From a virus: DNA of 36,124 bases. This document shows positions 14,337-34,470 of this stretch, one piece after another. Under the pieces are notes generated by a model. That model ran no database searches, was not told where the DNA came from, and saw only the letters and a program-made list of their open reading frames with translations. The translations under genes and the position numbers were made by a program. The stretch lies in IMG/VR virus record IMGVR_UViG_3300042504_003174, positions 1 to 36,124 of that record; one strand, written 5' to 3'. Each line of letters starts with the position of its first letter. The stretch's first letter is position 1.

Positions 14337-14404
14337 GGGCGCTGCCGGGAATCGAACCCAGTATTCCATGCTATCTGCATGACGTGTGCCAACACTTCAG
14401 GGCC
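14337..14404 (-). tRNA. degenerate or minimal tRNA-like element
   Basis: A T-arm is clear: CTGGG TTCGATT CCCGG. Reading back, a 4-nt variable loop, an anticodon arm TCATG-CAGATAG-CATGG, a D-arm GTGT-TGGC-ACAC with only a 4-nt loop, and an acceptor GGCCCTG pairing with CAGCGCC (one C-C mismatch) complete a cloverleaf of 67 nt plus discriminator. The formal anticodon is GAT (Ile), but position 33 is A instead of the near-invariant U and the D-loop is too short for a normal tRNA. No CCA is encoded. It may be a decaying tRNA, a tRNA mimic, or an integration-type site. Confidence 0.45.
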
Positions 14405-14418
14405 AGTGACCCCCAAAT

Positions 14419-14610
14419 TTAAGCATTGTTAAGAGGCTTAGGGGGAGGACTGCAGGAGGCGATCAACTCTCCCGGCCTGCAAGCAGGACTTAGTTTACAA
14501 ACGCAACGACCAGAAATTTCCAGTCCGTGCGCTGCTTGACAATCGTAGCAAGAGATGGGCCAAGCGTGAACAGCCGCAAGCGGCTCAAACAGGGGCTTGG
14601 CCTCTGTCAC
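14419..14610 (-). CDS. hypothetical Cys-rich small protein
   Basis: This 63-residue frame starts at GTG 14610. It has a CYDC pair, then CVC and two later Cys (SPACRPGEL, IASC), a pattern that could bind zinc. It lies between nrdB and the tRNA-like element. There is no recognised family and the start codon is weak, so the gene is tentative. Confidence 0.35.
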   Translation of the reverse strand: MTEAKPLFEPLAAVHAWPISCYDCQAAHGLEISGRCVCKLSPACRPGELIASCSPPPKPLNNA

Positions 14611-15449: not shown

Positions 15450-16880
15450 TCACTCTGCGCAGGCGCTACAGAAGCCAGCTTCCAAAGAACAAGCCTCAGG
15501 CTCGTCCAAGCTAAAGAAGTCGGCCAGACTCTCTCCCAAGTCTACTCCAACATCGTCCTTTGCTTGTGTGCCTGATTGCACTTGCAGCGCATAGTAAATA
15601 GACGATTGAGGACTGGCAAGCCATTCGCGAAGAAAAGCTTCATCACAAACGGTCATATCAGACCACCAGTTCATGGAATAGCCATGGAAAAGACCAGTGC
15701 GGCGCATCAGCTCAACAATGCCATCGGCTACTTTCTTAAATGCTTCCCAGCCCACTTGCTCTGCAATTTCCACTGGCCCATATTCAAATCTTTCCACACC
15801 CATCGTCTCGCTATCACGGTCAATAATTTGGTCAATGGGAGGAGCGATTTCAGGAGCAGTCGTAAAGCCTCTAGAGTCCAAATACCTATAAGAGCATGAA
15901 GCAGTGGGGGCAATGGTAAAGGCACGTTCCATGCCATGCTGCCTGGCAATGTCCGCAGCACCAAGCAAGCCCAATTGAATGGCGGCTACGGCGTCGCCAG
16001 CACGCTGATCAGTCCAATGATGGCACCAAGGATGAGGATCCTCATCAAGATAAGCTTCCAAAGCTTTGCCAAAATCTTCGTAGGAGATGTCATGAATGGA
16101 AAGGAAATTAGCTAAACCAAGAATGCCAAGCCCCACTTGCTTGTCAATGGAAGGCGAAAGGTATTCGCCAGTGTCGCCCACGCCAGTGGAAGGATGAAGC
16201 TCACACAGTTGCTTCATGCCATCCTTGAAAGCTTGCTCTACATCATTGATGCCACAAGCACCGAGATTGACATGCTGTAAAAGGCAAGTGCCACGATGAG
16301 GAAGATAAATCTCGAGGCAGACATTTCCACGCAAGCGTTCTCCTCTTTCGTTATAGCGAATCTTATTGAGCCAAATATCTCCGCTGGAAATGCCTTGGCA
16401 TAATGCTTTGATAAATTCAGGCGAAGATTTATCAAGAAATTGCTCATCCACATCAATGCAGCGCTTTGCCCATGGAAATTCTGATCGCGGAGCAGTGATC
16501 AAATCAATGGCATCGGGATGGTCGTAGTCAAGATGTAAAACAACAGCGCCATTTTTGTACTTGCCACCACGACGCAGAATTTCATTGAGCGTGGAATAGA
16601 TTTTGCCAAAGCTGAGTGGACCACTCGCAACAAGCCCTTTGCCATTTTCTTGGCCTTTGGGACGCAAGTTGGAAAGATGCACTGCCACGCCAGCGCCATT
16701 ACGAAGGCCATGGGAAACAAAGCGCCACGATTGCTCAATGCCATCTGGCCCTTCCATTGAATCTTCCACGACGAACACCGTGCAACTCACGGCCAAGCGC
16801 CCCTCAGGATCATTTAACCAGCTCTCCACTCGTCCAGTTCGAGCAATCTTTTCGCACTTTGCGCTTTCTTTGAGCTTCAT
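15450..16880 (-). CDS. nrdA: ribonucleotide reductase class I alpha subunit
   Basis: The 476-residue protein (ATG 16880) lacks an ATP-cone. Catalytic features are visible: active-site Cys in RLAVSCTVF (C33), N186-V-C188-L-E190 (the N-x-C-x-E motif), the partner Cys in TCLLQHVNLG (C199), IAPTASCSYRY, the radical-path pair Y429-Y430 in SSIYYALQVQSG, and C-terminal redox cysteines GFCSACAE. The YY pair marks it as class I rather than class II. It makes deoxynucleotides for phage DNA. The frame extends upstream to GTG 16919, but those residues are encoded by a terminator hairpin and are unlikely to be translated. Confidence 0.85.
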   Translation of the reverse strand: MKLKESAKCEKIARTGRVESWLNDPEGRLAVSCTVFVVEDSMEGPDGIEQSWRFVSHGLRNGAGVAVHLSNLRPKGQENGKGLVASGPLSFGKIYSTLNEILRRGGKYKNGAVVLHLDYDHPDAIDLITAPRSEFPWAKRCIDVDEQFLDKSSPEFIKALCQGISSGDIWLNKIRYNERGERLRGNVCLEIYLPHRGTCLLQHVNLGACGINDVEQAFKDGMKQLCELHPSTGVGDTGEYLSPSIDKQVGLGILGLANFLSIHDISYEDFGKALEAYLDEDPHPWCHHWTDQRAGDAVAAIQLGLLGAADIARQHGMERAFTIAPTASCSYRYLDSRGFTTAPEIAPPIDQIIDRDSETMGVERFEYGPVEIAEQVGWEAFKKVADGIVELMRRTGLFHGYSMNWWSDMTVCDEAFLREWLASPQSSIYYALQVQSGTQAKDDVGVDLGESLADFFSLDEPEACSLEAGFCSACAE

Positions 16881-16883
16881 GAG

Positions 16884-16908
16884 ACAACAAAGCCCGCTTT
16901 GCGCGGGC
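16884..16908 (-). terminator. intrinsic terminator upstream of nrdA
   Basis: GCCCGC, loop GCAAA, GCGGGC on the minus strand (16908-16892) is followed by TTTGTTGT. It ends the gene at 16933-17121 and lies 4 nt before the nrdA start codon, so nrdA expression may depend on readthrough or on a promoter within this area. Confidence 0.6.
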
Positions 16909-16932
16909 CGAACGAACACTCCTTACTGTAGC

Positions 16933-19673: not shown

Positions 19674-19704
19674 GAGAAAGGCCTCCCCATATGAAGGAGA
19701 GGCC
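19674..19704 (-). terminator. intrinsic terminator of the island operon
   Basis: Minus-strand GGCCTCTCC, a 7-nt loop and GGGGAGGCC (19704-19680) form a 9-bp stem with one G-U pair, followed by TTTCTC. It lies 26 bp after the last gene of the GP88 operon and is itself written in the island's AG/CT-rich style. Confidence 0.6.
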
Positions 19705-19730
19705 TCGGAACAGGACCAGCCTGAGAGCTC

Positions 19731-19919
19731 TCAGGAGCCTCGCAGGAGGCGCGCGCGAGCTTCTCGAGAGGAGGAGAAGGGGAGGCGAGGAGAGGAGCGC
19801 TCGAGCCTTTCGAGAAGGCCTTCGAGAAGCTCCTCCTCGAGCATGCTCTCAGGCTCGAAAGCTTCGAGAGCGAGGAGAAGGAGAAGGAGCTCGAGCGAGG
19901 AGAAGGAGGAGGAGCTCAT
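19731..19919 (-). CDS. 62-aa low-complexity protein, third gene of island operon
   Basis: The start ATG overlaps the GP88 stop codon in ATGA, indicating coupled translation. The protein uses only nine amino acids (M, S, F, L, E, A, P, G, R). It has a serine-rich N-terminus SSSSFSSLE, a leucine stretch LELLLLLLALEAF and an amphipathic acidic helix ESMLEEELLEGLLERLER, and ends with an Arg-rich tail. The whole gene contains no AC, GT or TA dinucleotide. It could be a small membrane or coiled-coil partner of the GP88 protein. No family is recognised. Confidence 0.5.
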   Translation of the reverse strand: MSSSSFSSLELLLLLLALEAFEPESMLEEELLEGLLERLERSSPRLPFSSSREARARLLRGS

Positions 19920-21031
19920 GAGCATTCCCCCAAGCCCGAGAAGCGCGCGAGGCCTCCTCCTGCGAGCTCCTGCCAGTCAGCATGCGGAGCGAGCGCGAAG
20001 GCCTTCGCGCTCTCAGGCTTCGAGCCTCTCGAGCGCTTAAGGCGAAGCAATACCGCGAGGCCTGAGAAGCCAGCTCGAGGCGCTCGATCGAGCATGCGCA
20101 GGTCGTTAAGGTCCCCATCGATGCAATCAAGGCGCGCAAGGCCTCCTCCGGGAGCCGTGAGCATGAGCTCACCAGGGAGAGGCTCGCCCTTTGCAAGCAA
20201 TATTGGTACGGCAATCGAGAAGCCATGCCTCGAGGCCTCGAGCGCGCGAAGTGCTCCCCCTGGTGCGTCAGCCGCAAGGCTCGCAGTGGTGTGAATTCCG
20301 GCTTCTCTCATGGCGAGGAGGCGCGCGAGAGGCGCCTTTGCGTAGTCATAAAGATGGACGCCTCGAGCATCGCGCAAGGCCTCGGGGATTGTGAGCCTAC
20401 CGGAAGGGATTGTGCTCCCATAAAGGCGAGAAAGGCCTCGAGCCTCCTCGGGAGAAAGGCGCGCGCTCATGCTCCGCTCATGCCATGGAAGTTCTTGTGT
20501 GCCATTCAGGCGCAAGGCGAAGGGGAGGCGAAGCTTGCGCGCCTTTCGCGCTGCGAGGCCTCCGGACCACAGGAGCGCCTTTATAAAGGCCTCTGAGTCC
20601 CATAGAAAGGCGAGCATTCTTCGAGCCCTGCAGGAGGCACAGTTGGTCGAGATCCCGCCATGGCCTGAGAAGGCGAGACACAGATCCCTGCAAGCATCGC
20701 TCGAGAAGGCGCAAGCGTTAAGCGCGAGCGCGCGCTCGAGGAGCCCGAAACGAATCGCGAGCTCGCGAAGGCCGGGGAGCTCGCTCCTTACGTTGCAAGC
20801 ATGCGAGTCCGGAGTGAGCGCGCGCGCGAGGCCTTTCGCGGGGAGCATATGAAGGAGCGAGGAGAAGGCGAGGCCTTCGCCTTTCGCGAGCTTCGCGTTC
20901 GCAGCTCCTGAAGTGAGAAGGCCGGGGATTGTCAGGCCAAACTGCGCGAGGTTCGAGGAGTGCTCGCGAGGAGAGCGAGGCGCCTTCGAGCGAACCGCAG
21001 GAGGAGCGAGGAGGAGAGAAGGAGAAGCCAT
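19916..21031 (-). CDS. GP88-family protein in restricted nucleotide code
   Basis: The 371-residue protein shows the GP88 family pattern in order: GLLTSGAANAKLAKGEG (about 37-53), CRDLCLAFSGHGG (114-126), ARRMLAFLWDSEAF (136-149), LRLNGTQELPWHE (173-185), GVHLYDYAK (224-232) and DGDLNDLRMLD (305-315). GP88 proteins occur in phages and plasmids and have no established function. Leu, Ala, Ser and Arg are strongly over-used, while Val is near 1 percent and Tyr and Thr are rare. Leu is nearly always CTC or CTT, Arg CGC, Glu GAG. It lies 33 bp after the 191-residue gene and overlaps the next. Family call rests on motif order. Confidence 0.7.
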   Translation of the reverse strand: MASPSLLLAPPAVRSKAPRSPREHSSNLAQFGLTIPGLLTSGAANAKLAKGEGLAFSSLLHMLPAKGLARALTPDSHACNVRSELPGLRELAIRFGLLERALALNACAFSSDACRDLCLAFSGHGGISTNCASCRARRMLAFLWDSEAFIKALLWSGGLAARKARKLRLPFALRLNGTQELPWHERSMSARLSPEEARGLSRLYGSTIPSGRLTIPEALRDARGVHLYDYAKAPLARLLAMREAGIHTTASLAADAPGGALRALEASRHGFSIAVPILLAKGEPLPGELMLTAPGGGLARLDCIDGDLNDLRMLDRAPRAGFSGLAVLLRLKRSRGSKPESAKAFALAPHADWQELAGGGLARFSGLGECS

Positions 21032-21064
21032 GGGAGAGAAGGAGAAAGGAGAAGGAGAAGGAGC

Positions 21065-21640
21065 TCAGCGAGCGAGGAGAGGCCAGCGCAGATCAGCCAT
21101 GAGCGCTTCGAGCTCCTCGAGGCTCTCCTCGAGCTGAGCCTGCAGAGCCTCTCGCCTGTCGGCGATTGTGCGGAGCTCTGCTGCGCGCTCGCGCAATTGC
21201 AAGGCTCCCATCTGCAGATCCTTCGCGCTTAAGCACAGGCGAGGCTCACGCTCGAGAGCTGAGAGAAAGGAGGCGGCTTCGAGCTCGAGCTCCTCCGCAT
21301 CGGCGCGCAAGGAGAAAGGCGAGGAGCGCTCCTCGAGGAGCGCGAGGTTCTTCTCGAGCATGAGCGCGAAGGCCTCCGCCTCCTCAAGCGAGGAGAAGGA
21401 GAGCACTGGCCATGAGAGCTCACCCGGGAGAACGGGCGAAGGCGAAAGGCGAGGCGCGCGAGGAGCGCGCTTCTCGCCCGGGAGGAGAGGAGAGGCCATG
21501 AGAGAGAAAGGCGAAGACCTCCCCATATAAAGGCCTCGAGCGCCTTTCGAGAAGGAGCGATCAGGAGCGCTCATAAGAGGAGCGCCTTTCGCCTCCTTTC
21601 GAGAAGCTACGCTGATCAGATAAGGAGAAAGGCCATGCAT
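21065..21640 (-). CDS. island protein with long acidic coiled-coil region
   Basis: The 191-residue protein (ATG 21640; internal ATGs at 21575 and 21530 are alternatives) starts with a Pro/Arg/Ser-rich region and then becomes a helical, Leu-Glu-Ala-rich segment: SSLEEAEAFALMLEKNLALL, then LRERAAELRTIADRREALQA and QLEESLEELEALMADL. The heptad-like spacing of Leu suggests a coiled coil. Val is almost absent. It is the first gene of the three-gene island operon and uses the same codons as its neighbours. No recognised family; perhaps a partner of the GP88 protein. Confidence 0.5.
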   Translation of the reverse strand: MHGLSPYLISVASRKEAKGAPLMSAPDRSFSKGARGLYMGRSSPFSLMASPLLPGEKRAPRAPRLSPSPVLPGELSWPVLSFSSLEEAEAFALMLEKNLALLEERSSPFSLRADAEELELEAASFLSALEREPRLCLSAKDLQMGALQLRERAAELRTIADRREALQAQLEESLEELEALMADLRWPLLAR

Positions 21641-21786
21641 CCCAGGAATGCCTCGATTGCCATAAGCCAGGCTGATCAGTCAGCGAAAGGAGCGCGAGCC
21701 TTTACCAGGAGAAAGGCGAAGCGCTCGATACCTGCAACATTCCGTCACACTGACCCATGCCAAACGAAACGCACGCACCGCGCATT

Positions 21787-21924
21787 AACGACACGCAACG
21801 ACGCCCAACGCGCAGAAACGGCACGCAACGACGCCCACAAGCCCCCACAAGCCCCCACAAGCCCCCACAAGCCCCCACAAGCACCAACGACGCCCAACGA
21901 CGCCCAACGACGCCCACAAGCCCG
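21787..21924. repeat. T-free AC-rich block with 10-bp tandem repeats
   Basis: The plus strand has no T for 138 nt. It holds four perfect tandem copies of GCCCCCACAA (21841-21880), copies of CGCCCAACGA in tandem (21891-21910) and two copies of ACGCAACGACGCCCA further left. On the minus strand the first array becomes GGGGG runs separated by CTTGT, a clear G-quadruplex motif that would be in the leader of the GP88 operon transcript if its promoter is to the right. The 10-bp unit length matches one turn of the DNA helix. Confidence 0.8.
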
Positions 21925-21934
21925 TCACAGCTCA

Positions 21935-22054
21935 GCGTGCGCGCGTGCGCGCGCGTGCGCGCGTGGGTGCGCGTGCGCGCGTGGGCGCGCGTGCGCGCGT
22001 GGGTGCGCGTGCGCGCGTGGGCGCGCGTGCGCGCGTGGGTGCGCGTGCGCGCGT
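21935..22054. repeat. A-free Z-DNA-prone 18-bp tandem repeats
   Basis: For 120 nt the plus strand has no A and is nearly pure alternating purine-pyrimidine. Five tandem 18-bp units GTGGGYGCGCGTGCGCGC run from 21963 to 22052, with T and C alternating at unit position 6 (T, C, T, C, T), so the higher-order period is 36 bp. Alternating GC/GT tracts of this kind favour left-handed Z-DNA under negative supercoiling. Confidence 0.8.
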
Positions 22055-22080
22055 ATAGGCGCGCAGCCGGGCCCGCGCGC

Positions 22081-23477: not shown

Positions 23478-23592
23478 GATGGAGCTGGTTGAGAAGGGCT
23501 TGTCTGCGGGCTTTAGCGGCCCTGAGGGCTTGCGGCTTAAGCCTCCGCTTGGGAGGCTTGCCGCTGTTGTGCTGGTGATTAGGCACCTGCAT
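23431..23592 (-). CDS. hypothetical basic peptide
   Basis: This 53-residue frame (ATG 23592) is very basic and rich in His, Gln and Arg: MQVPNHQHNSGKPPKRRLKP, then RRQALLNQLHHARRNQHPGH. The composition suggests nucleic-acid binding or ribosome-associated behaviour, but it could be a non-translated shadow, since both ends overlap better supported genes. Confidence 0.3.
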   Translation of the reverse strand: MQVPNHQHNSGKPPKRRLKPQALRAAKARRQALLNQLHHARRNQHPGHQQQRP

Positions 23593-23755
23593 GATTGAAC
23601 ACTGGTCGTATCCAGTGGCGATTGGCCGGGAAACACTGCTGCATTTCCTTTTGCCAGAGCAGGGCTTCTTCATGGTCTGGGCCAGTGAAGCCACACTGGC
23701 GAATGGCCCCATCGGGGGTTTGTTCAAAGAGCCGGAAGAGAGCGACGGTTTGCAT
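23579..23755 (-). CDS. hypothetical small protein with GNRA-hairpin leader
   Basis: The 58-residue protein (ATG 23755) reads MQTVALFRLFEQTPDGAIRQ, then CGFTGPDHEEALLWQKEMQQ and CFPANRHWIRPVF. It heads the operon running left to 22221. Its leader carries the TATTGT-like hexamer and hairpin GAGCC-GAGA-GGCTC. No family recognised, but its composition is coherent. Confidence 0.5.
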   Translation of the reverse strand: MQTVALFRLFEQTPDGAIRQCGFTGPDHEEALLWQKEMQQCFPANRHWIRPVFNHAGA

Positions 23756-23775
23756 GATCTTGAGAACGTGGTAGT

Positions 23776-23834
23776 GAGCCTCTCGGCTCGTTGAAAGAAC
23801 AATAGAGCAAGAGAGGCCTCTGGGAAAGGGGCCT
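23776..23834 (-). promoter_or_regulatory. leader cassette 1: terminator stem, TATTGT, GNRA hairpin
   Basis: Minus strand in order: stem AGGCC/GGCCT (23834-23814) ending the gene at 23846, 9 nt, TATTGT (23804-23799), 9 nt, hairpin GAGCC-GAGA-GGCTC (23789-23776), then 20 nt to the ATG at 23755. The hexamer is a plausible -10 box; transcription would start a few bases before the hairpin. Confidence 0.5.
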
Positions 23835-23845
23835 GTAACAATGCT

Positions 23846-24373
23846 TCACACTTTAGATTTGATGCGACGCTTCACTTGGCTGCGCTCTACATAGGGAGCT
23901 GGATCCACCCAGCCCTTCCTACGGAAGACGCTGTTAGTGGAGGCCTCCACCCGCTCACCATCGTCAAAGGTGATGATGATGGTCCAGCAAGTGGGAGTGC
24001 GCAGTTCGGTGCCATCAGGAGCGCGAGTGATGCTCCAGCCACATTCTTGGTCGGTGATTTCAATAGAAGCAATGGAATGCCAGCCAACCACTTTGGTACT
24101 CATCACTCCTATAGCCTCAAGGATGGCCAGTTCATCACCCACTTGCAAAGAATGGCCAATGGCTTCACGCTGGCGCTTAAGGGCATAAGCCCAATCTTGA
24201 AATTCCTTGTGGGCCTTCTTGGTGTGGCGCACGCCGTGGCCATCACAGCCGTAGCAAACGCTGCCATGGAGCTGGTTGTAGCTGTGCTCGCCAGAGCCGC
24301 CGCAACGTCCGCACACTTGCAAGGGAAAGCCGTAGCGATCAACAGAGGGGAAGGAATCAAGGGTGATGGTCAT
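23846..24373 (-). CDS. DnaJ-type zinc-finger protein
   Basis: The 175-residue protein (ATG 24373) has an N-terminal DnaJ-like zinc site CGRCGGSGEHSYNQLHGSVC then YGCDGHG, i.e. two CxxCxGxG-like halves. The rest contains EFQDWAYALKRQREAIGHSL and a beta-rich C-terminus with GWSITRAPDG and CWTIIITFDDGERVEA. It could bind unfolded protein or nucleic acid. A GNRA leader and a terminator precede it, so it is a separate transcription unit. Substrate unknown. Confidence 0.6.
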   Translation of the reverse strand: MTITLDSFPSVDRYGFPLQVCGRCGGSGEHSYNQLHGSVCYGCDGHGVRHTKKAHKEFQDWAYALKRQREAIGHSLQVGDELAILEAIGVMSTKVVGWHSIASIEITDQECGWSITRAPDGTELRTPTCWTIIITFDDGERVEASTNSVFRRKGWVDPAPYVERSQVKRRIKSKV

Positions 24374-24380
24374 GAGAGGA

Positions 24381-24436
24381 GGCATCGCTGCCCGACTGAG
24401 AGAACAATACGACAAAAAGGGGCTGTTGCCAGCCCC
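24381..24436 (-). promoter_or_regulatory. leader cassette 2: terminator, TATTGT, GNRA hairpin
   Basis: GGGGCTG-GCAA-CAGCCCC followed by TTTTTG (24436-24414) terminates the gene at 24466. Exactly 9 nt after its stem comes TATTGT (24409-24404), then 11 nt and the hairpin GGCA-GCGA-TGCC (24392-24381), 7 nt before the ATG at 24373. Confidence 0.6.
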
Positions 24437-24465
24437 TGAACGATCACTGTTGCTTATCGTCACAA

Positions 24466-24726
24466 TCAGCGCCGCTGATCACAAATGCCAGCGAGCATCT
24501 CGCCCACATAAGACTGAACAGCGCGAAGCTGGTCAAAGGCATCGTCGCGTTCAGCACGAGCCTGGTAGTAGGCGCCAGGGGCCTGCGGATAAAAATCCCT
24601 TCCGTTAAGTTCCGCCTTCGCCAAGGCGTCAATGGCCTTGTCAATGGCGTCGTAAGCAGCGGCGTAACCGTCGCGCAGCTCAGTGAAGCCAGTGCCGTTG
24701 AGATGGACAGTAGGAATGGTTGCCAT
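24466..24726 (-). CDS. hypothetical helical small protein
   Basis: The 86-residue protein (ATG 24726) begins MATIPTVHLNGTGFTELRDG and continues with a helix rich in Ala and Asp, AYDAIDKAIDALAKAELNGR, and PQAPGAYYQARAERDDAFDQ. Its NGTGFTEL...YxxAxDAI pattern recurs in cyanophage and phage hypothetical proteins. Preceded by a GNRA leader and followed by a strong terminator, it is a monocistronic unit. Confidence 0.6.
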   Translation of the reverse strand: MATIPTVHLNGTGFTELRDGYAAAYDAIDKAIDALAKAELNGRDFYPQAPGAYYQARAERDDAFDQLRAVQSYVGEMLAGICDQRR

Positions 24727-24741
24727 GGGAGAAGAGGAAAG

Positions 24742-24792
24742 GGCGTCGCCGCCGGACAAAGGAACAATACAGGCGAGAGGGGCCGAAGCCCC
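24742..24792 (-). promoter_or_regulatory. leader cassette 3: terminator stem, TATTGT, GNRA hairpin
   Basis: Stem GGGGC-TTCG-GCCCC (24792-24779) ends the gene at 24799. It is followed by 9 nt, TATTGT (24769-24764), 10 nt and hairpin GGCG-GCGA-CGCC (24753-24742), 15 nt before the ATG at 24726. Confidence 0.6.
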
Positions 24793-24798
24793 TGCTTG

Positions 24799-25089
24799 TC
24801 ACAAAGCTTCACAAACGGCATCGACCAGCTTCTTCTGTGCCACTCGCTTGCCATTGACCTTCCAGAGCGTGGTGCTGCTCCAGCGACCGCCGCCCATGCA
24901 CCGAGGAACAATCCAGCAGCTTACTTCCTTTCCATTGAACTCCCCAGAGGCAAAGCCGCCAGCGCTGCTGCCATTGCGGCAGCTTTGAGAAAAGGCTTGA
25001 TCATAAAGCTTGCCAGTGAAAACAGTGGCATCGGCCCAAGAGGGTGAAGCGCCTACGGCCAAGAGTTCTTCGCGAGAAATATATTTCAT
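24799..25089 (-). CDS. hypothetical protein
   Basis: The 96-residue protein (ATG 25089) starts MKYISREELLAVGASPSWAD and has a Gly/Ser-rich centre GSSAGGFASGEFNGKEVSCW, then RWSSTTLWKVNGKRVAQKKL. The strand-turn pattern suggests a small beta domain. It starts 3 nt after the stop of the gene at 25092 and shares its promoter. Function unknown. Confidence 0.55.
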   Translation of the reverse strand: MKYISREELLAVGASPSWADATVFTGKLYDQAFSQSCRNGSSAGGFASGEFNGKEVSCWIVPRCMGGGRWSSTTLWKVNGKRVAQKKLVDAVCEAL

Positions 25090-25091
25090 GA

Positions 25092-25310
25092 TCAATGAAC
25101 GATGGAGTTGAAATAGTATTCAGCTTCCCACTTGTGGTCGAACAAGCCGTAGGAGGTGTCGTGCGTAGAAAGCTCGGTCAGGCGCTCCCAGCCATAGGCT
25201 TCCCATTTGATGGTGCCGTCAGCGCAATGGAACTTCCTGATGCCATAGCCAGAATGCTGGGCTTGCCGGTCGGCTTCTAGGCGAGCCTCGTAAGAGGGAT
25301 AATGCTTCAT
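25092..25310 (-). CDS. hypothetical small protein
   Basis: The 72-residue protein (ATG 25310) reads MKHYPSYEARLEADRQAQHS, then GIRKFHCADGTIKWEAYGWE and SYGLFDHKWEAEYYFN. The CADGTIKWEAYG strand pair looks like a small beta-sheet. It begins a two-gene unit with 24799. Function unknown. Confidence 0.55.
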   Translation of the reverse strand: MKHYPSYEARLEADRQAQHSGYGIRKFHCADGTIKWEAYGWERLTELSTHDTSYGLFDHKWEAEYYFNSIVH

Positions 25311-25326
25311 GATTCTGAGGAATGGT

Positions 25327-25381
25327 GGACCTCGCGGCCCGTTGCAAGTAATGTACAGGCAGGAGGGGCCTGGTCAGCCCC
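25327..25381 (-). promoter_or_regulatory. leader cassette 4: terminator stem, TACATT, GNRA hairpin
   Basis: Stem GGGGC...GCCCC (25381-25365) within a longer GGAGGGGC hairpin ends the gene at 25396. It is followed by 9 nt, TACATT (25355-25350), 9 nt and hairpin GGGCC-GCGA-GGTCC (25340-25327), 16 nt before the ATG at 25310. Spacing is the same as in cassettes 1-3 although the sequence differs. Confidence 0.55.
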
Positions 25382-25395
25382 TCCGCAACAATTGT

Positions 25396-25578
25396 TTACA
25401 AACGCCCTGGGCTCTGTGTGCCCTGCACCACCATGAAGGTCTTGGTGGCAAACACGGCCTGCAGGCTTCGGGCTTGGCGCTCGAGGGCATTACGATCGGC
25501 GCCGGAATCAAGAATGTTCCAACGGCCGTCAGTCAAGGCCCACAGGCTCCAGCAGTTGTCGCGCTCAAGAACTGCCAT
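25396..25578 (-). CDS. hypothetical small protein
   Basis: The 60-residue protein (ATG 25578) reads MAVLERDNCWSLWALTDGRW, then NILDSGADRNALERQARSLQ and AVFATKTFMVVQG. It begins 2 nt after the stop of the upstream gene. An AACAATTGTT palindrome spans its stop codon. No family recognised. Confidence 0.5.
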   Translation of the reverse strand: MAVLERDNCWSLWALTDGRWNILDSGADRNALERQARSLQAVFATKTFMVVQGTQSPGRL

Positions 25579-25580
25579 GG

Positions 25581-25859
25581 TCAGAACACCAGCTCTTTGC
25601 CATTGCTTTTGATGCTCACCACACGCTCGCAATCAAACGAGCGCCAAGCGCCTTGGCCTTTGTTGCGGGCAATGGTGAAGTCGCGGCAGCGAACGATGCC
25701 GGGCTTCTTGAGGGCATGGCCAGTACCCTTGATTTCGCAGGAGTCGAGAGGATTGAACTGCAGTTTGCGCAGGGTGCCATCAGCCTTAACGAACTGCACG
25801 GAGACGATTGCTGCGCCTGCATCGCGGATAAAAGCTTTAACGGAAGCGGTTTTGTCCAT
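25581..25859 (-). CDS. hypothetical protein
   Basis: The 92-residue protein (ATG 25859) contains MDKTASVKAFIRDAGAAIVS, VQFVKADGTLRKLQFNPL and TIARNKGQGAWRSFDCERVV. The segment FVKADGTLRKLQFNP resembles small phage proteins proposed to be SH3- or WYL-like beta domains, a weak likeness. It is followed closely by the gene at 25396, so the two share a transcript led by leader 5. Confidence 0.5.
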   Translation of the reverse strand: MDKTASVKAFIRDAGAAIVSVQFVKADGTLRKLQFNPLDSCEIKGTGHALKKPGIVRCRDFTIARNKGQGAWRSFDCERVVSIKSNGKELVF

Positions 25860-25878
25860 GGGAGGGAAGATGAATGGT

Positions 25879-25904
25879 GAGGCTCGCGCCCCGTTGAAAC
25901 TATG
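25879..25904 (-). promoter_or_regulatory. leader 5: GNRA hairpin
   Basis: GGGGC-GCGA-GCCTC (25892-25879, one G-U pair) lies 19 nt before the ATG at 25859 and follows a CATAGT box (25904-25899) and TTTCAAC shared with leader 1. The box-to-hairpin distance is shorter (6 nt) than in the other leaders, so the -10 assignment is weak. Confidence 0.4.
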
Positions 25905-25952
25905 ATTGCCCATCGAGAGCCTTTTGGGAAGCCCTTTACCTATTAGCGTTGC

Positions 25953-26117
25953 TTATGGTGCAACTGTACTAGGGGCATGCGTGAGCCTGCAGTAGCGTTC
26001 GGGGTGGAGTGCCATGCACTTGCGGAGGGCGGTGAGGTCGTCTTGCTGCTGCACGGGTAGCGTGGCTAAGGCCAGCAGGCTTGCGAGCGTGAGCAGCGGC
26101 AGCATGATGCTTTGCAT
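25953..26117 (-). CDS. small secreted or membrane-anchored protein
   Basis: The 54-residue protein (ATG 26117) has an N-terminal hydrophobic segment MQSIMLPLLTLASLLALATL that could be a signal peptide or anchor, followed by RKCMALHPERYCRLTHAPST with two Cys. Similar short CMxxHPERYCRL proteins are, as far as I recall, found in marine picocyanobacteria and their phages. It lies downstream of the RlpA-like gene on the same strand, after a terminator. Confidence 0.55.
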   Translation of the reverse strand: MQSIMLPLLTLASLLALATLPVQQQDDLTALRKCMALHPERYCRLTHAPSTVAP

Positions 26118-26209
26118 GGTTAAGAGGCGATGCCTGCGCACGATAACGAGCCAGCCGGATCTCGCAAGAGCTCAGTTGCTTTTCGTTACAAAGCTGGCTA
26201 GGCCCAAAG

Positions 26210-26236
26210 AAAAAGGCGCCCCATGCGAAGCGCCCT
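26210..26236 (-). terminator. intrinsic terminator after the RlpA-like gene
   Basis: Minus-strand GGCGC...GCGCC (26234-26215) is followed by five T (26214-26210). It lies 39 bp after the stop of the gene at 26273. Confidence 0.6.
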
Positions 26237-26272
26237 TGGTTTCCTCCATTGTCCCTTAGGCCACCTTGGTGC

Positions 26273-26629
26273 CTACACCACCTGATAACAGACCGTTGCC
26301 AGGCCGCTACCAGGGTGAGCGATGCGAGCAAAAGCGCCATAGCTCAGGTCGAGAATCCTACCACCGTACCAAGGGCCTCTATCAGTCACCTTGACGATTA
26401 CGCTCCGACCATTGCGCACCACTCTCAAGCGGGTGCCGAGCGGAAGCGATGGGTGGGCAGTGATCATGGCTCGCGGGTTCATTGGCTGACCATTGGCCAT
26501 TGTCTGGCCTGCAAAGCCGTCACCGTGCCCGTAGAAGCTGGCTTCGCCGCAGCGAGACTTAGCCTCCGCAGCAGCAGGCACCAGAGCGCCTAAGGCAACG
26601 GAAACTGAAAGAAGAAAACGAAAAAGCAT
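26273..26629 (-). CDS. RlpA-like double-psi beta-barrel protein, secreted
   Basis: The 118-residue protein (ATG 26629) starts with a signal peptide (MLFRFLLSVSVALGALVPAA ending AEA). The mature part is an RlpA-type double-psi beta barrel: CGEASFYGHGDGFAGQTMAN, then PLGT-RLRVVRN and KVTDRGPWYGGRILDLSYGA, including the conserved TDRGP. Bacterial RlpA proteins bind or cut peptidoglycan in the periplasm. A phage copy could act in cell-wall remodelling or lysis. It has its own promoter and GNRA leader, and a palindrome overlaps the promoter. Confidence 0.8.
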   Translation of the reverse strand: MLFRFLLSVSVALGALVPAAAEAKSRCGEASFYGHGDGFAGQTMANGQPMNPRAMITAHPSLPLGTRLRVVRNGRSVIVKVTDRGPWYGGRILDLSYGAFARIAHPGSGLATVCYQVV

Positions 26630-26660
26630 CAGGAAAGAAAAAGAAGAAGTGAGACTACGG

Positions 26661-26691
26661 AGGGTCGCCCCTACCAAGGTTTACCGTATCA
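26661..26691 (-). promoter_or_regulatory. leader 6: extended -10 promoter and GNRA hairpin
   Basis: The minus strand has TGATACGGT (26691-26683), an extended -10, then 10 nt and the hairpin AGGG-GCGA-CCCT (26672-26661). The RlpA-like ATG is 31 nt downstream. No terminator stem precedes it; the palindrome at 26689-26700 does. Confidence 0.5.
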
Positions 26692-26700
26692 CAATTGTGA
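26689..26700. promoter_or_regulatory. 12-bp perfect palindrome between divergent promoters
   Basis: TCACAATTGTGA is a perfect palindrome that overlaps the extended -10 of the RlpA-like gene (minus) and lies 29 bp upstream of the -10 of the plus-strand RNA. It is a good operator candidate that could control both. Confidence 0.45.
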
Positions 26701-26728
26701 GGCTTGCTGCCGTGGCTGGTAGTGGTGC

Positions 26729-26933
26729 TATGATTTGCAAGCTTGAGTTGGTCCTGGCCGAAAGGCCCGTCGCTGACGCCGCAAGGGTGGACGCTGCTGA
26801 GCACTCTGGACTTTCCGCGAGGACTGTCCCTAGCATTGCATGGGCTAGTGAGAGGAGTGCTCCCCTTTGGGAGGGAGGCTGTGGCATCGGAAGCTCAAGC
26901 AAAGGAAGAAGGGCCGCAAGGCCCTTCTTTTTT
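26729..26933 (+). ncRNA. structured small RNA with promoter and terminator
   Basis: An extended -10, TGC-TATGAT (hexamer 26729-26734), predicts a start at 26741. From there GCTTGAG (26741-26747) pairs with CTCAAGC (26894-26900) and closes a multibranch fold: GGCC-GAAA-GGCC (26756-26767), CGCC-GCAAG-GGTG (26777-26789), GAGCACTC 26799-26806 with GAGTGCTC 26855-26862 enclosing GGAC-TT-TCC-GCGA-GGA-CT-GTCC (26808-26829) and CTAGC/GCTAG (26830-26848). A terminator GAAGGGCC-GCAA-GGCCCTTC with six T ends at 26933. No convincing gene is seen on either strand. The RNA would be about 193 nt. No known family is recognised by eye. Confidence 0.65.
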
Positions 26934-32487: not shown

Positions 32488-34470
32488 TCAAAAGAATTCG
32501 TCGTCAAGGGAGTTGTCGCTCTCTTTTGCAGGGGCGGCAGGGGAGTGATTGCTCTCGAAATCAAGGTCGGGCTCTTGGTATTCCCAGGAATGGTACACTC
32601 GCTGCTTTTCTCCATTGGGACCATTTTCAAAACTGCTGGTGATCAAGCCTTGCCTTCTGGCCACTTCCAGCATCTTGCTCGTGCCAGCAATGTCAAATGC
32701 TCCTGCCATTGCTGCTGCTTGTTGCTTGGTGAAGCGTTCGTGCTTGCGCATGTTGATGGTGTTGACCACGCGATCAAGCTCTTCCAGGCTTCCACCGAGA
32801 GGGCCAGCATATTCCCAGCCATAGTTCAATGCATCCCTGCGAAGCATGTGCTTGCCAGTGAGGCCGCTCCTGCTCTTAAGCCATTCAAGATGGAACTGGC
32901 TGCCATCAAAATTATTTTCAGGCTTGGTAAGTTTCACCACTTCACTAACGTTGTCAACAAAGCTCGTCGAGTCACGAAGTCCTCCGCTTTTGTTCAAATG
33001 GTGAAGGATGAGGATGGAACATTTGTAGGTGTTGGCAATATCGCGCAGGCCATAAATAACGTCGCCAGCATTACTCTTAATCAAATCCACGTCCATGCCA
33101 GCAAGGCAAGCAGTAAGGGAGTCAATGGTGATAAACAAAGGGCGATGCTTGCGAACGTAATCTTCCAACTGTCGCATGTGAGCAAAGCGCCAAGTTTCCC
33201 AAAATGCAATGGTGCCAGGATCCAGGCCAGCATCTTCGTAGCCAATCACGCCAAGCTTCTCGCTGGTATCCACCAGAGGCTCATCGCTTTGAATGATGAG
33301 GCTCTTGCCCTTCATGCACCGTCGTCCTGACCATGGAGTGCCGAGAGCAATGTGCAGTGCCCAGTTGTAGGCGACAGTGCTCTTGCCGGTGCCGCCAGAA
33401 GCTGCTAGCAGCATCACAGTGCCGAGCGGCATGATGCCAGCAATCAGCCAGTCGCGAGCTTTGTCAGAGTTGGCAATGGTCAGGGCATCAATGGTTTCAA
33501 TTTCCTCCCTGCCATATATGCGTCCTTTTGCTTCTTCAATGATCTTGTCAATGTTTTGCTGATTCATCTTCACTGCACGCTGCTCCAACCATGAGCTGGT
33601 TTCGTAAGCAATGCGAGCATCATTGGCGTAGAGGCCAACAAAATTTTCTACCGTGGAGATAATCTCCTCGTAAGAGGGCTTGCCGTCTTGATTCTTGTGG
33701 CGGCTCTTGGTGACAATGGAAGAAAGCAGTTCATCTTTTGTGGCGCCTTCTTCAATGTAATCAGCTAAGTCATAGCCATTTCCGGGCGGGAGATTGTCCC
33801 ATTCCCACGAACGCGGATCGGCATACAGCCACGATGCTCCAGGATTGTCATTGGCGATTTCTGCCATGAAGGCCACGCCTTGTTCATCCCTGTCGGGAGC
33901 CAGGACAATCTTCTGTCCCTTGAAAAGCTGGCTGTAGTCGCCGTTGGTGCGATATTGTTTCGATCCGCCAAGGAAGGTGACAGCAGGCAGGCCAATAGCC
34001 CAGCAGGCTTCGCAGGTGAGTTCACCTTCAACGACAACGATGGGCAGGCCAGTCTTCTGACTCTCCTCAACGGCTTCCGAATATTTGTACGGCAAAATGC
34101 CGGCTTTCATCTCCTGCAAGAGCGCCTTTTGGTTGGTGGCGTCCGATGGGATGGTGGGAAATTCTTGCCAGATGCGTTTTGAGCCGCTCGAATCGTCTCG
34201 ATGCACCCGAACGATTTCTTCGCGCTGTTTGTTGTAGTAAGGGAAGTGATGCGAGCCAGTCTCCCTGTAGGGCTTTTCCCATCGCACCATTGGAGCCAGC
34301 ACATTGCGGATGTCGGCCCTGTGAGCGGAGCTGGGGTCGTGCCAGCAGTTGTAGCCGCCTGTGGTCTTGTTCACCGTGAAGTCGTTGCCGCCGCATGCGG
34401 GGCAGACAAACTTGCCCTTCTCGTTGCTGGGCTCGAGTTGCTCGAGGAAGTCGAGGATGTTAAAGGCCAT
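32488..34470 (-). CDS. TOPRIM primase-helicase (RepA-like ATPase)
   Basis: The 660-residue protein fuses a primase half to a RecA-like helicase. Zinc-site residues are CPAC at 23-26 with C42 and H44. The TOPRIM domain shows VVVEGELTC (E148) and LAPDRDEQG (D193, D195). The ATPase has Walker A GGTGKST near 359-365, then LIIQSDEP and a Walker B strand PLFITIDSLTACLAGMD, and LILHHLNKSGG. The C-terminus is an acidic tail (SDNSLDDEFF) like those that bind partner proteins. It primes and unwinds DNA at phage forks. It is divergent from the RHH gene across 139 bp. Confidence 0.85.
   Translation of the reverse strand: MAFNILDFLEQLEPSNEKGKFVCPACGGNDFTVNKTTGGYNCWHDPSSAHRADIRNVLAPMVRWEKPYRETGSHHFPYYNKQREEIVRVHRDDSSGSKRIWQEFPTIPSDATNQKALLQEMKAGILPYKYSEAVEESQKTGLPIVVVEGELTCEACWAIGLPAVTFLGGSKQYRTNGDYSQLFKGQKIVLAPDRDEQGVAFMAEIANDNPGASWLYADPRSWEWDNLPPGNGYDLADYIEEGATKDELLSSIVTKSRHKNQDGKPSYEEIISTVENFVGLYANDARIAYETSSWLEQRAVKMNQQNIDKIIEEAKGRIYGREEIETIDALTIANSDKARDWLIAGIMPLGTVMLLAASGGTGKSTVAYNWALHIALGTPWSGRRCMKGKSLIIQSDEPLVDTSEKLGVIGYEDAGLDPGTIAFWETWRFAHMRQLEDYVRKHRPLFITIDSLTACLAGMDVDLIKSNAGDVIYGLRDIANTYKCSILILHHLNKSGGLRDSTSFVDNVSEVVKLTKPENNFDGSQFHLEWLKSRSGLTGKHMLRRDALNYGWEYAGPLGGSLEELDRVVNTINMRKHERFTKQQAAAMAGAFDIAGTSKMLEVARRQGLITSSFENGPNGEKQRVYHSWEYQEPDLDFESNHSPAAPAKESDNSLDDEFF

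Follow-up and report, generated by a model that had tools for sequence, protein, structure and literature searches.

The current study describes a repeated messenger RNA leader element in a virus record of 36,124 bases (IMG/VR record IMGVR_UViG_3300042504_003174; this whole stretch is referred to as the window), in which a -10-like promoter box is followed at a near-constant distance by a hairpin whose loop is nearly always G(C/A)GA, shortly before the start codon of a small gene. On the evidence of its sequence, the element is real and not local to the window, since more than 110 distinct copies were collected from dozens of IMG/VR contigs and from the isolate Synechococcus phage S-CBS4. The window carries six copies, listed with their covariance model scores.

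23776..23789, minus strand: leader hairpin GAGCC-GAGA-GGCTC; box TATTGT; gene ATG at 23755; 43.2 bits, E 1.8e-8
24380..24393, minus strand: leader hairpin GGGCA-GCGA-TGCCT; box TATTGT; ATG at 24373, 6 nt after the hairpin; 41.8 bits
24742..24753, minus strand: leader hairpin GGCG-GCGA-CGCC; box TATTGT; gene ATG at 24726; 39.5 bits
25327..25340, minus strand: leader hairpin GGGCC-GCGA-GGTCC; box TACATT; gene ATG at 25310; 37.1 bits
25879..25892, minus strand: leader hairpin GGGGC-GCGA-GCCTC; weak box AATCAT; ATG of a phrog_2267 family gene at 25862; 31.5 bits
26661..26672, minus strand: leader hairpin AGGG-GCGA-CCCT; box TACGGT, spacer of 10 nt; ATG of an RlpA-like gene about 31 nt further on; 17.8 bits

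The original prediction had named six minus-strand hairpins with GCGA or GAGA loops, and all of them were confirmed at their places. It had placed a box 9 to 11 nt before the hairpin in five leaders; the spacing held, and the count was corrected to six of six, with a poorer box (AATCAT) in the 25.9-kb leader. The loop, previously regarded as generic GNRA (N, any base; R, purine), had to be narrowed to G(C/A)GA, as GCAA occurs only rarely and GAAA, GUAA, GGAA, and GUGA hardly at all. In the genome-wide scan that had been proposed as a check, a box joined to a G(C/A)GA hairpin with a stem of at least 4 bp was found in the 36-kb window at these six places only; the other G(C/A)GA hairpins (five on the plus and three on the minus strand) have no box in register. 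The covariance model, built from 62 leaders, also matched the six and nothing besides in the window. Because the six sit among the 62 leaders of the model, their scores are partly a product of its construction, which does not apply to the absence of further matches in the window.

Two homology searches provided 28 related loci, in which the gene strand carries 94 successions of box, GNRA hairpin, and ATG and the opposite strand none. When any loop of 3 to 7 nt was allowed after the box, the four-base loops on the gene strand were GCGA (36), GAGA (10), and eight singletons, while the same scan of the opposite strand yielded no GCGA or GAGA loop. The fairest test is based on 102 non-redundant upstream regions of 75 nt that were picked solely by homology of the downstream gene, among them loci fetched by one leader pattern that most of the counted leaders do not match. 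A G(C/A)GA hairpin is present in 70 of these 102 regions, a few of the 70 being terminator or coding stems and not leaders, compared to 0.1 in shuffled sequences. Among the large contigs, 14 of 15 carry one to five significant copies, mostly within a few kilobases of each other. S-CBS4 contains four or more clear copies, with model E values of 4.5e-8 to 0.0014, as well as some weaker ones, and uses a different stem family (GGCCG/CGGTC) for them. The element was not found in the cyanosiphoviruses S-CBS1, S-CBS2, and KBS-S-2A; a sigma factor is annotated in all three of them but not in S-CBS4, which is a correlation only. A cellular origin was rejected, as one exact version of the pattern retrieved 75 IMG/VR stretches but only 3 matches in 257 Gb of genomes, none of them cyanobacterial in a host search that covered this version alone.

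The leaders share a common anatomy that starts with the terminator of the previous gene and continues with the -10-like box (TATTGT or TANNNT), a pyrimidine-purine step, unpaired nucleotides, the hairpin, a C/U-rich stretch, and the ATG. In 76% of 90 leaders the step, usually CA, lies exactly 7 nt after the box, with A at this position in 72% of the leaders and G in 17%. This step is the predicted transcription start and fits the usual distance between a -10 box and a start; together, TANNNT and the step provide the sequence signature of a host sigma-70 type promoter between the short genes. Between the predicted start and the hairpin, 2 to 4 nucleotides are unpaired in 75 of the 90 leaders. 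The box-to-hairpin spacing has a standard deviation of 1.6 nt, in a search restricted to a 6-nt range, compared to 4.9 nt for the distance from hairpin to ATG, which extends from about 4 to more than 30 nt. The leader of the RlpA-like gene illustrates this, as the ATG is about 30 nt away, yet the hairpin stays near the box. Of 114 leaders, 80 have a terminator-like inverted repeat no more than 45 nt before the box, compared to 13.5 in shuffles. In the window, terminator-like repeats also lie upstream of the 23.8-, 24.7-, and 25.3-kb leaders, and the one directly upstream of the 24.4-kb leader is an intrinsic terminator.

24418..24437, minus strand: intrinsic terminator of the preceding gene (AGGGGCTGGCAACAGCCCCTTTTT)

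The element with its pairing, near-fixed loop, fixed distance to the box, strand, and position can be read directly from the DNA. The original interpretation is partly supported: its common 5'-end element of separate transcripts is borne out by the box spacing, the start signature, the hairpin 2 to 4 nt further on, and the conserved pairing in more than 110 leaders of many phages, and mRNA protection, processing, or binding of a factor are possible functions.

Two-sided changes with retained pairing affect all five stem pairs of the 62 aligned leaders, 95.4% of the cells are paired, and the covariation score is 0.90 versus 0.29 in shuffles, but these counts overstate the case because the set was largely selected for having a stem. 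Fair tests are provided by homology-chosen regions and by leaders of orthologous genes that were found regardless of pairing. Orthologous leaders of the 25862 gene carry the stems GGGGC/GCCTC, GGGC/GCCC, CCTG/CAGG, GGCA/TGCC, and GCCA/TGGC, each around a G(C/A)GA loop, and those of the relatives of the RlpA-like gene have AGGG/CCCT, GGAG/CTCC, and other stems around the same loop. The covariation first proposed from the window had been drawn from paralogous leaders, and the orthologous-leader test agrees with it. With respect to the loop, about 117 distinct genuine leaders comprise 78 GCGA, 36 GAGA, and 3 GCAA, i.e., 114 with G(C/A)GA, while the terminators of the same phages use other loops (TTCG, GCAA, and GAAA). 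Generic GNRA stability was rejected as the cause of this choice, as the computed stability is equal for all GNRA loops.

Our preferred reading, to which we assign slightly less than an even chance, is that of a 5'-terminal stem-loop that would hinder 5'-end-dependent decay of phage mRNA, with a loop that is probably contacted by a factor. Each leader would be part of an insulated expression cassette composed of the terminator of the previous gene and a -10 promoter, which host RNA polymerase would read, starting 7 nt after the box. The resulting mRNA would begin with a purine and one to three more free nucleotides (5'-A(A)C-hairpin or 5'-GUUC-hairpin), followed by a hairpin of 4 to 6 bp. At a distance of 2 to 4 nt from the predicted 5' end, this hairpin would hinder the entry of RppH and RNase E and leave a C/U-rich, unstructured stretch free of a Shine-Dalgarno (SD) sequence for the ribosome, and the G(C/A)GA loop would probably also be contacted by a putative host or phage factor. 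In Escherichia coli, 5'-end-dependent decay is known to be slowed by a stem-loop at the 5' end, a 5' hairpin stabilizes bla mRNA, and such hairpins are known to impede RppH (PMC3997798). In Prochlorococcus, host RNase E is raised during infection through a transcription factor of the cyanophage (PMC9692554).

Several observations weigh against a protective role of the hairpin. A minority of cassettes (e.g., at loci L020, L059, L042, and L045) have the promoter without the hairpin, and the folding z-scores of single leaders are unremarkable, their stability being not much above that of shuffled sequence. Pure stabilization leaves the near-exclusive use of GCGA and GAGA unexplained, because other GNRA loops are equally stable by computation. 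Moreover, the pyrophosphohydrolase of Bacillus subtilis needs only two unpaired 5' nucleotides (PMC3997798), and 2 to 4 may therefore be too many to block the cyanobacterial enzyme. As GNRA energies are equal and single-sequence z-scores unremarkable, the case for the element rests on comparison. A broader and somewhat less probable reading is that the leaders represent a new leader-RNA class, in which the G(C/A)GA 5' stem-loop would serve as a shared identity tag for an RNA-binding factor that protects or prioritizes phage messages while host mRNA is degraded; with the same reserve, the tag would sit on exchangeable promoter-terminator cassettes in a broad group of picocyanobacterial phages.

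Operon-internal orthologues of a leader gene have no hairpin, as seen for the 24726 gene at L013, L062, L057, and L104, which indicates that the hairpin travels with the transcription start and not with the gene. The hairpin is also not needed for the promoter, given the promoter copies without it, and judged from these comparisons it is an optional mRNA element and not a promoter part. Cassettes that serve homologues of the 24726 and 25310 genes keep the terminator and the TATTGT promoter without a hairpin at the four hairpin-less loci named above and at L058 and L074; these cassettes have a very short leader (TTGTTCGC...ACC-ATG) and represent a natural hairpin-less control. A terminator function of the leader hairpins themselves was rejected, as they follow the -10 box, the start codon comes no more than about 30 nt after them, and the window copies have no following T tract.

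The main rival, which we regard as possible but rather unlikely and which may coexist with protection, is a recognition site whose G(C/A)GA loop would be read by a phage or host RNA-binding protein that coordinates a regulon of small phage genes at the level of their translation or turnover. A loop that is almost invariant while the stems change freely favors recognition by something besides simple protection, as do the equal computed stabilities of the GNRA variants and an agreement of loop type within contigs that exceeds permutations (P = 0.0016), although the latter is confounded by the kinship of copies in one phage. However, no candidate protein was identified, and the mixture of GCGA and GAGA in single phages argues against strict coevolution. 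The 25581-25862 protein is not an obvious dedicated reader, since phage S-CRES2 has a WYL_2/Sm-like relative of it but no convincing leader in the stretch that was read. A translational role, in which the hairpin would set an unstructured C/U-rich stretch beside the start codon as a replacement for the SD sequence, would agree with the rarity of SD-like words before leader genes (3/114, compared to 10/38 genes in the structural-gene half of the S-CBS4 genome) and with a C+T content of 73% between hairpin and ATG; given the variable distance to the ATG and the cassettes and operon-internal orthologues that manage without a hairpin, we consider it improbable.

Antitermination is equally improbable in our view. 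There is some likeness to lambda boxB and rrn boxA in the GNRA-like hairpin near the start and in the word TGTTCTTT, which a part of the spacers contain, and the genes are separated by terminators, so that a nascent nut- or put-like hairpin might modify RNA polymerase for readthrough. Yet the boxA-like word varies (TATATTGGTTTCAAC, TACATTACTTGCAAC, TAACTTTTATTTTGTC) while the TANNNT box is conserved, and readthrough would gain little because every short gene owns a promoter and a hairpin; a boxA/nut site was rejected, as the spacer is variable and has no common boxA word 5' of the hairpin. The least credible explanation, with a very low probability, is a function at the DNA level, i.e., an operator, an N4-like hairpin promoter, or mere shared homology for cassette recombination. 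Genes and leaders are indeed reassorted between phages, and the units therefore probably also serve as recombination homology, but arms that vary with pairing kept would be needless for a homology tract. The same variation, together with a loop that is absent from the opposite strand, led us to reject a double-stranded DNA operator, and an N4-type promoter for a virion RNA polymerase was rejected in view of the hairpin-less promoter copies and of S-CBS4, in which no RNA polymerase gene is annotated.

The closest known systems are the promoter early stem-loops (PeSLs) of T4-type phages, reportedly described by Arbiol et al. in 2010 and Comeau et al. in 2014. Like these, the present cassettes are composite units of a terminator and a host-type promoter between short, shuffled genes, and the junction of stem-loop terminator and promoter was recovered in the 80 of 114 leaders mentioned above. 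The stem-loops of PeSLs are terminators, whereas here an extra hairpin with a near-fixed loop lies inside the transcribed leader. PeSLs belong to T4-type myoviruses, and the present phages are related to the siphovirus-like S-CBS4 of picocyanobacteria; S-CBS4 is the nearest isolate, and the window gave no match to phage records that would indicate homology to known PeSLs. The new component is hence the transcribed 5' hairpin with its near-fixed loop, and the whole unit works like PeSL cassettes. The likeness extends to lambda-type nut sites, which comprise a small stem-loop with a purine-rich GNRA-type loop near a phage transcript start; the present element differs in that it lacks a conserved boxA, is present once per short gene, and has a tetraloop instead of a pentaloop, and no N-like protein is known, none having been sought. 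The 5' stem-loops of ompA and papA belong to single genes, unlike the multi-gene element, and to our knowledge share no fixed loop. They and the stem-loop appended to bla lie a few nucleotides from a bacterial mRNA 5' end (PMC3997798), where the leader hairpins are predicted to lie as well. Repeated intergenic promoter units are also known from halovirus HF2, but these are archaeal promoters, and its abstract describes no transcribed fixed-loop hairpin (PMC8707807). PeSL cassettes of T4-type phages are named in PMC4503421. Rfam 15 covariance models gave nothing relevant for the window and four related loci, both at the gathering threshold and at E values up to 5, and no description was found in the literature searched, from which subscription papers were mostly missing; the element is apparently undescribed.

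With respect to its phylogenetic position, the window virus is, by its encoded proteins, related to S-CBS4, which infects Synechococcus sp. CB0101 and has siphovirus-like tail genes. This placement is based on the helicase/primase-type protein (32488-34470, minus strand), which matches that of S-CBS4 over its full length with 56.7% identity, and on the ribonucleotide reductase domain protein (15450-16919) and the RlpA-like protein (26273-26629), whose gene types are also annotated in S-CBS4. Megablast of the window against phage records gave no DNA match. The genes served by the cassettes form one cluster.

23579..26629, minus strand: cluster of short genes, comprising 23579-23755, 23846-24373, 24466-24726, 25092-25310, 25581-25862, and the RlpA-like gene 26273-26629

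Ahead of the RlpA-like gene, an upstream stretch of about 200 nt (minus strand, 26690-26900) is conserved in S-CBS4 and other relatives, with words that include TCCGAT, GTCCACCCT-NN-CGGC, CAGGACC, and ATAGCACC. The consensus fold of nine sequences has two-sided changes in 23 of 43 pairs, and no Rfam match was obtained for this region, which is possibly an unrecognized structured phage RNA. Elsewhere in the window, the stretch 14337-14445 (minus strand) contains a tRNA-Ile (GAT) and, immediately before it and on its strand, a match to the abiF RNA family that scores 52.6 bits against a gathering threshold of 37. Positions 19700-21700 use a strikingly restricted vocabulary (ctcgag, gcgctc, gcctttctc, aggcctc) over open reading frames of 371 and 191 amino acids and differ in composition from the remaining window, and GC-rich tandem repeats of alternating ACGCGC-like units are located at 21900-22080 beside GTTGGGCGTC and TTGTGGGGGC repeats.

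The leaders represent a compact, repeated, and strongly conserved design of the mRNA 5' end in little-studied viruses of picocyanobacteria, and the isolate S-CBS4 on Synechococcus CB0101 makes it directly testable. Swapping the loop versus swapping the stem provides a handle by which recognition and protection could be told apart. Small phage genes may in addition be exchanged at the cassettes, which may also be of use as insulated expression parts in the engineering of cyanobacteria. The design bears on the means by which lytic cyanophages preserve their own messages.

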